Below, piece by piece: positions 43,124-47,494 of a stretch of DNA of 64,000 nt; position 1 is the first letter of the stretch, and the number at the start of each line of letters is the position of its first letter. The translations under genes and the position numbers were made by a program. Source of the DNA: Halocatena salina. Lineage in GTDB: Archaea > Halobacteriota > Halobacteria > Halobacteriales > Haloarculaceae. Location: contig NZ_CP096022.1 in assembly GCF_023115355.1 (NCBI RefSeq), positions 248,001 through 312,000 on the forward strand, written 5' to 3'. The notes under the pieces were generated by a model, which was given only the letters and a program-made list of their open reading frames with translations, was not told the DNA's origin and did not search any database.

Positions 43124-44518
43124 TCACTGCCAGACGTCACTGGTACAGTCGCCGTCGGGCCAGCGAATTTCGTGAGCACGGGCCGGACCATGCGGTGAAT
43201 CGCCGAAATCGACGAGGAAATCTTCATCCAGTTCCATGGTTCCGTTTCGAGGGTTGACGTCGGCCTTGAGCATCACCGATCCCTTCTCGGCCTCCTTCGG
43301 ATAGAATTGATTATCCCACGAAGAAAAGAGGGACGTTGTCCAATAGAGACGTTCCCCATCAAGCGACAGTTGCAGCATCTGGGGCCCGCCAACGACTTCA
43401 CGGTCGTCTGCACCGGTGGGGTGTGAATCACCGAAATAACCACCAGCCCAGATACGGTCAGCCAGCCGTGGATTGGCGGGATCACTGATATCATACATCC
43501 GAACATCTCCATGGAGCCAGTTTCCAAAGAACAGATAGCGATCGTCCATTGATATGAGAAGGTCGGTTACGAGACCGGGCACGTCCATTTCCCAGTCCTC
43601 GTGTTCGCGCGATTCGACATCGATAACGTTCTCGGCGTGCCACTCGCCGTCCGCCTCGAAGAAGTGGAAGATATTCGAAGAGAGTGCTGCGCCGACGTAC
43701 CCATGCGTGGCCTCGGGACTGTGGAGAAACCGAACTTCGAGCGGAATCAGACCATCTTCACCGAGATCGATGGTCTGCTCGACGTTTCCTTCGGCCCAGT
43801 CCCAGACGTGGAGCCGCTGCCCGTACATCCCGTTCTCGACGTCCTCGAGGTCGAATCCCGGATAGTAGGTCGTCGGTGCCGCCCACTCCGAAGAAACCAT
43901 CACATTGTGGCGCGGTTGGTACCAGAAGTCGTAGTTCATCTCGATCTCGCCGGGCGGATCCCACCGACCTTCGATCTCGAAATCGTCGTTGAGTTCGAGA
44001 AAACCTCCGGGTAGCTCCCCGTTGGCGTCGCCGAGCATGCTAATGAGGATTTCCCCATCCGGAATACAATGGACGGTGTGCGGAGCCGAGAGATCGTACT
44101 CGAAGAGTTCCTCCGGTTCGATGACCGTCTCGATCTGGGGATCACGACGATTTTTCGTGTCGACGACGTGAATGCGTGAGGAGCGTTGTCCGGGAATGAT
44201 GAGATGTCGACGCTCCAACTCATCGATGTGACATGATGACGAACAGGCGTTCCAGCCGAAGTGGTGGAGTTCATCGCCTCGATTGGGCATTTCGACGCGA
44301 TCGATGACCTCCGTATACGTTTCGGACTCTGGATCGACATCGACGACCGATAGGAAGTCGGGCGCGTCGACATCCGTTCCGACGTACAATCCCATCACGT
44401 ACGCAAGCCTCTCCGGATCTGACTCCTCGATAGCTGCCTGCGGGGTCGCGTAACCCGGACCCTCCGTCTGAGCGTGATGGTGTACCTCAGTATCAGCTGT
44501 TGGCTCAATATCGCTCAT
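43124..44518 (-). CDS. Selenium-binding protein 56 family/methanethiol oxidase
   Basis: This protein of 464 residues from ATG 44518 (MSDIEPTADTEVHHHAQ) belongs to the SBP56 family. The bacterial member is a copper methanethiol oxidase that turns methanethiol and oxygen into formaldehyde, hydrogen sulfide and hydrogen peroxide. The conserved Cys motif ACSSSCH, with following RRHLIIPGQRS, is present. A beta-propeller with blades such as ISMLGDANGELPGGF and the C-terminal GGPQMLQLSLDG and HGPARAHEIRWPDGDC fit the family. A start at 44548 is less likely. The downstream ferredoxin gene overlaps or abuts. Confidence 0.9.
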   Translation of the reverse strand: MSDIEPTADTEVHHHAQTEGPGYATPQAAIEESDPERLAYVMGLYVGTDVDAPDFLSVVDVDPESETYTEVIDRVEMPNRGDELHHFGWNACSSSCHIDELERRHLIIPGQRSSRIHVVDTKNRRDPQIETVIEPEELFEYDLSAPHTVHCIPDGEILISMLGDANGELPGGFLELNDDFEIEGRWDPPGEIEMNYDFWYQPRHNVMVSSEWAAPTTYYPGFDLEDVENGMYGQRLHVWDWAEGNVEQTIDLGEDGLIPLEVRFLHSPEATHGYVGAALSSNIFHFFEADGEWHAENVIDVESREHEDWEMDVPGLVTDLLISMDDRYLFFGNWLHGDVRMYDISDPANPRLADRIWAGGYFGDSHPTGADDREVVGGPQMLQLSLDGERLYWTTSLFSSWDNQFYPKEAEKGSVMLKADVNPRNGTMELDEDFLVDFGDSPHGPARAHEIRWPDGDCTSDVWQ

Positions 44519-44901
44519 GGACGTATGATTCGTGGTATCTATTAACAATAGTTGTTGTTCAGGACAGAATCGCCGATATATGTGACGCTACCGATCGTCG
44601 ATTACGGTCATAGGACTCAGAAACGGCAAGTTCAGTAGCTGTCTGTTTGCGTTCTTCTCGACTCGCCGCTGGATGCACGACAGTACCACAGGCCGCGTTC
44701 AGTTGCCTGATCGGCCGATTCGGCAGTATAAACCATTCGGCCGAGGGAATTGGCTGTCGTATACGCACGCATATCGTGTCGGTGAGATTGTAGTTAAATG
44801 CTGTCGCTCATTCGTCGCCGCTAAGCTTGTATTTGAGATAGAATACTGAATCTGCGCACCCACCAGCTGTTTTTATAATCCATCGCGGTTAATAACATGA
44901 T
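44519..44901. other. Divergent promoter region
   Basis: 383 bases between the divergent SBP56 and small-membrane-protein genes. The TATA at 44871-44880 serves the right-hand operon, and a TGTTAATAGA element near 44544-44553 probably serves SBP56. Confidence 0.45.
44871..44880 (+). promoter_or_regulatory. TATA element of the small protein-permease operon
   Basis: TTTTATAATC lies 22-31 bases upstream of ATG 44902 and supports that small gene being the first of the transcript. Confidence 0.6.
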
Positions 44902-45051
44902 ATGGTATCCGAGCTGACGATCGGTGCTATCCTTGCTCTACTCGCGTGGCTTGGGTTACAAGCCGCGGTGTTCCACGGCAAATACGTCGTCGACAAGATT
45001 GCTGCTGGGGAGTACGCTAAAGGTCCCTTTAGTCGCTCAGAGGACGGCTAG
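44902..45051 (+). CDS. 49-residue single-helix membrane protein
   Basis: ATG 44902 opens a 49-codon gene: MVSELTIGAILALLAWLG, then a helix end LQAAVFHGKYVVDKIAAGEY and a charged tail ending SRSEDG, with stop TAG at 45051. One transmembrane helix (about residues 6-23) precedes an amphipathic stretch. A good TATA lies 22-31 bases upstream. The APC-UspA permease starts four bases after the stop, so it is in the same operon. I infer an accessory subunit of that permease; no family is recognised. Confidence 0.72.
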   Translation: MVSELTIGAILALLAWLGLQAAVFHGKYVVDKIAAGEYAKGPFSRSEDG

Positions 45052-45055
45052 TCAC

Positions 45056-47494
45056 ATGAGTAACGACGACGGACTCCCGGGTCACAGTCACGATGAAGAG
45101 CTCGCTCGGGATCTCTCGTTGTTCGACATCACGATGATCGGCTTGGGAGCGATGATCGGCGCTGGGATCTTCGTCCTCACCGGCCTCGCTGCTGGACAAG
45201 CTGGGCCAGCACTGGTCATGGCGTTTGCGTTCAACGGCTTCATCACCATTTTTACGGGGATGGTTTATGCTGAACTCGGGTCTGCGATTCCCGAAGCAGG
45301 TGGGGGGTATCTGTGGGTTCGAGAGGCGCTTGGTCGTTCCCAAGCGTTTCTAGCTGGCTGGATGTCATGGTTTGCGCACGCCGTCGCAGGATCGTTGTAC
45401 ACTCTTGGATTCGGTGCGTTCGTCCACCTCCTTCTTACTGAGTACTTCGGCATTGCTCTTTTCCAACCACTCACGATTGGATTGCAAGGAGTTACGCTCT
45501 TATCACTCGGGCCAGACAAGCTCTTTGCTGTGTTTGCGGGGGGTCTCTTCACATACATCAACTATCGCGGCGCGAAAGAAACTGGACTCGCTGGCAATAT
45601 TATTACGATCGTCAAGGTAGCCGTCATTCTCGTTCTCATCGTCTTTGGGTTTGGCTACATCTTCGATAATCCAACCCAAGCGACCGGCCGGTTCAGACCG
45701 TTTCTGCCGAGAGAGCTTAGTGGCGTCTTCATCGCGATGGGGCTGACATTCATCGCCTTCGAAGGGTATGAGATCATCGTCCAATCCGGCGAAGAGGTCA
45801 TGAATCCGAAAAAATCCGTACCAAAGGCGGTCTTCTACTCGATGTCGATCGTCGTCACCATCTACATGCTCGTCGCCATCGTCCTCATCGGCTCAGTGAC
45901 AGTCACACCCGAGCTCTTTGGACTTGCCCAGGAAGGTGCTGCTGAGGGTGTCCATGGTGGAGGGCACCTCCCACCGGTTCCATCGAACATCGAGGATGCT
46001 GCCGTCTGGGAGATCCTCGGCCATCTCGGGGAACTAGGTCTGGCCCGCGCTGCTGCCCAGATCATGCCATACGGAACCGTTATCATCCTCGTTGCAGGAG
46101 TCTTCTCGACGCTCTCAGCACTCAACGCGACGACCTACTCCTCAACGCGCGTCTCCTTCGCGATGGGCCGAGACCACGTCCTCCCAGACATGTTTAGCGA
46201 AGTGCATCCTGAGCAGCGAACCCCCTATCTCGCGACCGCGCTCTCAGGGGCGCTCATCATCTTCATGGCAGTGGCCTTGCCAATTGAGGCCGTCGCGGCG
46301 GCGACTGACGTGATGTTCCTACTATTATTCTTGCAGGTAAATTACGCGGCAATCGTTATTCGTCGAGAGTGGGGCGATGAGATCGATTATGGGTATATCA
46401 TGCCGTGGTTCCCGTACGTTCCAATTGTTGGGATTGTAACCAAATTGTTTCTCGCAGTGTATCTGTTCAACTACAGTCCGCTTGCATGGTACGGCGCGAT
46501 CGCGTGGATTCTAGTTGGATTCGGCATCTACTTCCTGTATTCTCGTAGGCGTGTTCGAGAGACTGCAATTGCGGAAGAGACGCGGCTCATTACCGAAGAG
46601 CGCGCAGGAGAAGGGCGCGGCTACCAGGTACTCATCCCACTTTCCGATCCAGAGAACACAGCGCAGCTCATCCGTACTGGCAGCGCAGTTGCCCGCCACA
46701 TGGACGGCGAGATTCTCTTAACGAGCGTGGCGACAGTGCCAGACCAAACGCCCCTGTCCGAAGGCCGTCACTACGCTGATGAACAGCAAGAAATATTGGA
46801 TGATGCCATGCGATACGTTCCAGAGGACGTTCCCGCTCATCAAACGGTCACCATCGGCCACGACGTTGCCAAGAGCATCAACAACGTTGCCTATCAACGC
46901 GATAGTGACCTTGTCTTGCTCGGTTGGCGAGGCGAACGGAAGCGATTCTCCGATTACGTCCTCGGTTCAACGATCGATACCGTCGTCGAGAACGCCGAAT
47001 GTGACGTCTCGGTCGTAAAGACCGATGGAGCACCAGAATCGAGTCGAGTGCTCGTCCCGCTGGCTGATGGACCAAATACCCAGTTAGCAGAAACCTTCGC
47101 CGCCGCGTACGCGAGAGCCGGTGCTGATGTGATGTTCTTCCACGTGGTGACCGACGACACTGGTGACGATGCCGAATCATTTCTCACGGAAAAGCAGACG
47201 ACACTGGCCGAGGAGGATCTGAACAGTTCCATCACTGTACAGGAGGGTGAAGACATCACTCAGACGATTCTTGATTACGCACGTGAGGAAGGCTTTGACT
47301 CCATCCTCATCGGGGCAGCCGGTGAAGGAATTCTCCGCCGGGTGTTGTTCGGTGAAATTCCCGAAACGGTTGGCATGCGTTTCGACGGCGAAGTCGTGAT
47401 GGTGCGCAAACATCGACCAGTACGATCGGCAGTGAAGCAGGTCATCGGCAAGTGGCTCGGAAAAGGTGCAAAGACAACTGTCCCCGATGAGTGA
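45056..47494 (+). CDS. APC-superfamily amino acid permease with two UspA domains
   Basis: This protein of 812 residues has an N-terminal transporter unit (about 1-500; 12-14 helices, LFDITMIGLGAMIGAGIFVLTG being the first APC motif, in pieces Leu-Phe-Asp to Leu-Thr-Gly) and two cytoplasmic universal-stress-protein domains (about 520-660 and 665-800). The first UspA domain shows LVLLGWRGERKRFSDYVLGS. The second shows ILIGAAGEGILRRVLFGEIPE. APC permeases carry amino acids or amines by cation symport, and the UspA parts probably sense nucleotide. The start is ATG 45056 (MSNDDGLPGHSHDEEL), since the longer frame upstream covers the small gene. Confidence 0.93.
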   Translation: MSNDDGLPGHSHDEELARDLSLFDITMIGLGAMIGAGIFVLTGLAAGQAGPALVMAFAFNGFITIFTGMVYAELGSAIPEAGGGYLWVREALGRSQAFLAGWMSWFAHAVAGSLYTLGFGAFVHLLLTEYFGIALFQPLTIGLQGVTLLSLGPDKLFAVFAGGLFTYINYRGAKETGLAGNIITIVKVAVILVLIVFGFGYIFDNPTQATGRFRPFLPRELSGVFIAMGLTFIAFEGYEIIVQSGEEVMNPKKSVPKAVFYSMSIVVTIYMLVAIVLIGSVTVTPELFGLAQEGAAEGVHGGGHLPPVPSNIEDAAVWEILGHLGELGLARAAAQIMPYGTVIILVAGVFSTLSALNATTYSSTRVSFAMGRDHVLPDMFSEVHPEQRTPYLATALSGALIIFMAVALPIEAVAAATDVMFLLLFLQVNYAAIVIRREWGDEIDYGYIMPWFPYVPIVGIVTKLFLAVYLFNYSPLAWYGAIAWILVGFGIYFLYSRRRVRETAIAEETRLITEERAGEGRGYQVLIPLSDPENTAQLIRTGSAVARHMDGEILLTSVATVPDQTPLSEGRHYADEQQEILDDAMRYVPEDVPAHQTVTIGHDVAKSINNVAYQRDSDLVLLGWRGERKRFSDYVLGSTIDTVVENAECDVSVVKTDGAPESSRVLVPLADGPNTQLAETFAAAYARAGADVMFFHVVTDDTGDDAESFLTEKQTTLAEEDLNSSITVQEGEDITQTILDYAREEGFDSILIGAAGEGILRRVLFGEIPETVGMRFDGEVVMVRKHRPVRSAVKQVIGKWLGKGAKTTVPDE

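Follow-up and report, generated by a model that had tools for sequence, protein, structure and literature searches.

What is the 49-codon reading frame that stands just before a large amino-acid permease gene in the haloarchaeon Halocatena salina, and does its product belong with that permease? We analysed this locus within a stretch of 64,000 nucleotides, hereafter the window (contig NZ_CP096022.1, positions 248,001–312,000, forward strand). The frame encodes MVSELTIGAILALLAWLGLQAAVFHGKYVVDKIAAGEYAKGPFSRSEDG, and the gene that follows encodes a permease of the amino acid–polyamine–organocation (APC) superfamily (PF00324, E = 1.6e-43; PF13520, E = 1.1e-42), which has an APC transport domain followed by C-terminal UspA domains (PF00582, E = 2e-29 in two stretches), the architecture that we call APC-UspA. 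We conclude that the small protein is probably a dedicated one-helix accessory subunit of one haloarchaeal clade of APC-UspA permeases, whose binding to the permease and effect on transport we infer. The first-pass annotation had described a 49-residue membrane protein with a clear start, a TATA box, one helix and a charged tail, four bases ahead of the permease; the coordinates, a TATA-like element beginning at −32, the profile matches, the predicted helix and the basic tail all bore this out. It had also placed the frame at the head of a permease operon; the pair does recur, though "operon" is slightly strong, as recurrence was seen for the pair only.

Because 70 open reading frames of at least 30 codons overlap the surrounding 5.5-kb stretch, the size of the small frame alone is not significant; the frame is significant because it is conserved. 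In an alignment of ten sequences including that of the window (codons 1–44), the ratio of non-synonymous to synonymous differences (pN/pS) was 0.22 (pN 0.146, pS 0.67), and columns varied at 22, 12 and 41 of 44 first, second and third codon positions, respectively. In each of the five alternative frames, between 6 and 10 of the 10 sequences were interrupted by stops. The small gene is real and under purifying selection. The window genome has one significant copy, and the culturable Haloferax prahovense also carries the gene (locus L009). Counting that genome, a single-sequence search found the gene in 6 of 146 genomes of the same family and 9 of 391 genomes of the class, and a profile search (E ≤ 1e-5) in 11 of the 391; weaker class-search matches (E of 0.004 to 0.1) lay nearly all in longer frames. 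Across 294 genomes of the phylum (E ≤ 0.001), matches were found only in the window's own genome and in G469, a methanogen of another class (mcrA was found), where the gene occurs twice, both times immediately ahead of an APC permease gene. In both copies the small frame is open and the permease frame reads in two pieces, at different places, which may reflect sequencing error, decay or something else.

The small gene follows one permease clade. A permease-first search of the 391 genomes (E ≤ 1e-200, the two best candidates per genome being scored) found such a permease in 13, and the 11 permeases with at least 56% identity (the window's included) belong to exactly the 11 genomes that carry the small gene. 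In the other two genomes (G180 and G403), whose permeases are 50% identical and lie outside the clade, the small gene was absent by both a genome-wide profile search and a scan of the upstream DNA. The probability of an 11-within-13 overlap by chance is ~1e-19, a figure that ignores relatedness. A plasmid collection held 18 records with most of the permease (best place per record); the small gene was present in all 7 with 53.8–74.9% permease identity and in none of the 11 with 46.3% or less. One plasmid record (H10) is the same record position as a genome already counted (G384). Thus, in distinct counts, the small gene stands beside 17/17 permeases at about 54% identity or more (the window's included), in contrast to 0/13 more distant APC-UspA permeases at about 50% or less. 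This was the search upstream of orthologous permeases that the first-pass annotation had proposed, with the lack of a conserved frame to count as refutation: such a frame was found, upstream on the same strand in 16 of the 17 and divergent in one. The result supports its suggestion of an accessory subunit, physical association being what we infer.

On a tree of 34 permeases, 19 with and 15 without the small gene, the distribution requires a single change of state, with a support of 99 in the Shimodaira–Hasegawa-like approximate likelihood ratio test (SH-aLRT); removal of one long-branch negative again left a single change, with a support of 100. The tree adds two permeases found via the small gene (G054 and G050) and two further negatives found in loci. 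It leaves out H23 (a partial UspA match only), H10, the G469 copies with permease frames in two pieces, and the other places in three plasmid records that have several (H9, H11 and H20); its negatives include two near-identical pairs (L094/L104 and L098/L105). Presence was scored first by motif and then by a profile scan of both strands, from 700 nucleotides upstream to 250 nucleotides inside each permease. The scan detected the small gene in 19/19 permeases of the clade (E of 5e-17 or better) and in 0/15 outside it (best E 0.49). Eighteen of the 19 positives helped to build the profile, and the sole non-contributor, L090, scored 3e-21. Hydrophobic frames near two negatives, one of 47 residues 540–680 nucleotides upstream of the G403 permease and one of 74 residues at −381 to −156 in L094 (a Haloferax plasmid), largely inside the upstream secY, gave no profile match. 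Every class-search match to the small gene at E ≤ 1e-5 adjoined such a permease, in one case a remnant of it. This case, on contig C15 of genome G319, is an open small gene divergent from a permease remnant of 98 residues, where a stretch of 284 nucleotides shares 81% identity with the intact copy on contig C13.

The conservation of the protein points to a helix with a partner. Residues 5–24 are hydrophobic, and AlphaFold, run with a three-sequence alignment, predicted a single main helix at residues 4–34, confident to about residue 30, a short helix of lower confidence at 37–40 and a loose tail; mean predicted local distance difference test (pLDDT) values were 90, 96 and 90 over residues 1–30. 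Four residues (G8, L11, W16 and L19) are the same in all 20 sequences compared, the window's included; T12 (replaced by A in the window), A15, V23, H25 and G26 are nearly invariant. Conservation over residues 6–26 follows the period of a helix (moment at 100 degrees, p = 1e-4; at 90–110 degrees, p = 3e-4; best period 98 degrees), so that conservation is concentrated on a single face, the pattern of a helix that packs against a partner. Basic residues are found after the helix but not before it, which by the positive-inside rule probably places the tail in the cytoplasm. The protein has two features expected of a dedicated one-helix transporter subunit: a single membrane helix, and linkage to and co-occurrence with one transporter clade.

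We considered other roles for the frame. The small gene lies upstream on the same strand in 18 of the 19 tree cases, and the spacing between its stop and the permease start is −8 nucleotides in 11 of these 18 pairs; the others have −4 (3 pairs), −11 (3 pairs) and +4 (the window). When there was a choice of starts we used the one that fitted relatives, and one distance was taken from annotation; genes overlap in 17 of 18 pairs, or in 16 of 18 with the annotated start in Natrinema (+13 rather than the chosen −11). In Haloferax volcanii, according to a published study, translational coupling requires overlaps or very short gaps, the last 15 nucleotides of the upstream gene suffice for it, and subunits of heteromeric complexes make up 45.2% of pairs at −8 to +10 nucleotides versus 5.6% beyond 20 nucleotides (Huber et al. 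2023, PMC10666635). The overlaps seen here are in or near that coupling range. In addition, a TATA-like motif at −29 to −34 was present in 10 of 19 rows (raw counts: 10 among the 12 close sequences, none among the 7 deeper), a spacing which suggests that the transcript is leaderless or nearly so and, in the close group, starts at the small gene. The frame might, then, be a leader peptide that mainly brings ribosomes to the permease start by termination and reinitiation, its product doing little. We regard this as improbable, however, since the amino-acid sequence itself is conserved, down to four invariant residues, and a conserved helix would be unnecessary if 15 nucleotides are enough. Moreover, on contig C13 of G319 the small gene is divergent from an intact permease, ~130 nucleotides from its first possible start; the two have stayed adjacent although coupling is impossible there, which favours a role for the protein and argues against a mere leader.

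An assembly factor, whose helix would help the permease to fold or to enter the membrane and would leave afterwards, would equally account for a single helix with a conserved face, for strict partner specificity and for synthesis just before the permease. We consider it unlikely, as near-stoichiometric coupling is more typical of stable subunits. Small hydrophobic proteins of such size also exist as type-I-toxin-like or holin-like peptides, and an independent membrane protein of this kind might lie next to the permease by chance. Holin-type profiles indeed gave weak matches (Holin_9, E 0.055, one member only and below the cut-off; PHROG holins, best E 0.24). The single change on the permease tree, the 17/17 co-occurrence and the position of every class-search match at E ≤ 1e-5 beside such a permease or its remnant nevertheless make chance proximity very improbable. 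Finally, that the frame is open by chance, among many others of similar size nearby, is scarcely credible: homologues in several families and another class, the codon-position bias and the pN/pS refute it.

Several observations weigh against an accessory subunit. Fifteen related permeases, 14 of them close, manage without the small gene; the small protein is therefore not needed for the fold. Most small-gene rows belong to a single close group, and the tree positives include the two permeases that entered via the small gene itself. In Haladaptatus caseinilyticus, one of the 17, the frame is present without an ATG, GTG or TTG start, and the small gene on contig C15 of G319 adjoins only the permease remnant. 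Beyond the close group the tail shows little conservation, and one of the two methanogen copies, which are outside the 20 aligned sequences, has I at position 11. The window pair itself has a gap and no overlap, and its protein has A at position 12, which is T in the 19 other aligned sequences; the window copy is therefore slightly derived.

If the small protein is a dedicated accessory subunit, the arrangement of the locus suggests how it may work. Transcription would begin at or just before the small gene, as the TATA spacing implies, and the small protein would be made first, followed by the permease at the overlapping or nearly touching stop and start, giving joint and proportionate production. 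In the membrane the helix would be oriented so that the very short N-terminus faces outwards and the basic tail the cytoplasm, and it would pack on the permease through the conserved face G8-L11-T12-A15-W16-L19-V23-G26; the face is observed, the permease as its partner is proposed. The tail would then lie on the cytoplasmic side, by the UspA domains, and the protein may stabilise or modulate the transporter.

By sequence, the closest solved structure to the permease is that of the Geobacillus transporter GkApcT (5oqt, E 1e-56). In the structure report, E. coli MgtS, a protein of 31 residues and one helix, packs against transmembrane helix 5 (TM5) of this APC/CAT transporter (PDB 5oqt), with a cholesterol site between the two; cholesterol hemisuccinate stabilises GkApcT only with MgtS present, and without MgtS total alanine uptake is lower and initial rates are similar (PMC5803215). 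This single helix on an APC transporter is the closest precedent in structure. MgtS, however, is a protein of the expression host rather than a genomic partner of GkApcT, whereas the window protein is genomically dedicated; MgtS also lies with its N-terminus in, whereas the window protein would lie with its N-terminus out. Among PDB chains the small-protein profile had no match at E ≤ 10, in a search that may not have covered MgtS as a sequence of its own.

Other one-helix partners are more remote. MetS (MaAIMP_sms, PF16951) is the one-helix small subunit of MetP, a transporter of the neurotransmitter:sodium symporter (NSS) family, and is likewise encoded beside a transporter of the LeuT fold, although its partner is an NSS protein and that of the window protein an APC protein (PF00324/PF13520). 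The two may share a roughly similar W-x-G-L pattern, but the profile test for PF16951 was negative: there was no match at E ≤ 10 in 15 proteins (12 members and 3 further, one of them a hand-made consensus). None was found in the window's genome, and 1 of 14 control genomes (Corynebacterium glutamicum) was positive; a literature search on MetS gave no result. SLC7 light chains, distant relatives of the window permease in the search against solved structures, likewise pair with one-helix partners, 4F2hc and rBAT. These heavy chains have a large ectodomain, whereas the window protein has almost no extracellular part, and no homology is implied. The bacterial AcrZ and KdpF are also tiny membrane proteins that modulate large transporters, but of other families, and no library match pointed to either.

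Where the helix might dock is suggested by conservation in the permease. In a 33-permease alignment, 8 of 18 positions of transmembrane helix 11 (TM11) are conserved only in the small-gene clade, compared with 52 of 321 over all helix segments (p = 0.003, uncorrected and the best of 12 segments); for TM5, the helix of the MgtS precedent, the count is 1 of 25. Helix limits are approximate, having been set by hand from hydropathy and a poor AlphaFold model (mean pLDDT 40, three sequences). In the first UspA domain, too, conservation is relatively higher in the small-gene clade (50 versus 28 of 138 positions; p = 0.013 in a Fisher test against the helices). We treat both as leads to a docking site, not as results. 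A bolder proposal makes the small protein a native regulatory subunit, of one helix and encoded together with its archaeal APC permease, perhaps the first such, and a pared-down equivalent of the heavy-chain helix in the heteromeric amino-acid transporters of animals. It would dock at the TM11–TM12 edge, where clade-specific conserved residues are densest, and relay signals between the transport gate and the UspA domains in the cytoplasm. This proposal is possible but, taken as a whole, doubtful.

Table 1. Features of the small-gene locus and of related loci. Positions without a prefix follow window numbering; L numbers denote loci outside the window.
Feature	Position	Strand	Basis or remarks
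TATA-box-like element TTTTTATAAT	44870..44879	+	begins at −32 from the small-gene ATG
Small gene, 49-residue single-span membrane protein, proposed permease accessory subunit	44902..45051	+	ATG start, TAG stop, pN/pS, homologues
Membrane helix, residues 4–26, conserved face G8/L11/T12/A15/W16/L19/V23/G26	44911..44979	+	20-sequence alignment, predicted helix
Basic tail: KYVVDKI helix extension, then YxKGP motif of close homologues	44980..45048	+	alignment
Gap between small-gene stop and permease ATG (45056)	45052..45055	+	4 nucleotides
APC-superfamily amino-acid permease, two C-terminal UspA domains, 812 residues	45056..47494	+	profile matches
First UspA domain of the permease, residues 525–655	46628..47020	+	PF00582, best stretch
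SBP56 selenium-binding/methanethiol-oxidase-like gene	43124-44515	-	PF05694, E = 3e-205
Pair copies in G469	L109:4249-6593, L110:3544-5893	-	permease in two pieces
Small gene and permease remnant, G319 contig C15	L026:7317-7907		
TrkH-linked small protein	L088:12469-12678, L089:12789-12998, L095:6551-6754	+, +, -	shared FD-LLL-GPLLI ... GR ... GY pattern
"Bacteriophage holin" annotations	L092:5420-5686, L090:3225-3482	+, +	
APC-UspA permeases near Lrp/AsnC regulators and TrkH/TrkA	L088:8885-13790, L089:9586-14095, L101:1-5367		UspA genes also in L088 and L101

The SBP56-like gene adjoins the pair divergently, and HMA metal-binding, catalase and methionine-synthase-like genes lie near the pair in the window. 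Both kinds of APC-UspA permease are found near Lrp/AsnC regulators and TrkH/TrkA potassium transporters in three haloarchaeal plasmid loci, which suggests a shared setting of ion or osmotic stress. A second small membrane protein, of 67–69 residues and probably two helices, directly follows TrkH potassium transporters on haloarchaeal plasmids, with a 0-nucleotide gap in two Haladaptatus plasmids and a 4-nucleotide overlap in Halorussus limi. The two that were scanned (L088 and L095) gave no Pfam match above the cut-off; this protein may be another unnamed transporter partner. Two proteins annotated as "bacteriophage holin" lie among APC and SulP permease genes on haloarchaeal plasmids, a name that looks doubtful; the one scanned (L092) had no Pfam match above the cut-off.

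No significant relative of the small protein was found in Pfam, NCBIfam, PHROGs or a PDB sequence search; matches of 7 of 19 members to phrog_21770 (best E 0.021) were too weak for use. The family is outside the Pfam and NCBIfam copies searched. It had been called unannotated, which is partly so: the homologue is entered as "hypothetical protein" in four of the six plasmid loci with annotation and is missing from the other two (the PLSDB gene table is incomplete). In the open-licence literature searched, no listed title or abstract opening described the pair, which is not proof of its absence from print. The locus thus reveals a small-protein family absent from the searched libraries and either labelled "hypothetical" or passed over in plasmid annotation. 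If the small protein is indeed a subunit, it and its permease would be a natural archaeal pair of a co-evolved one-helix partner and an APC transporter, replacing the chance complex of MgtS with GkApcT. Such a pair would allow tests of how a single helix tunes an amino-acid transporter, and of UspA domains acting jointly with a small subunit.
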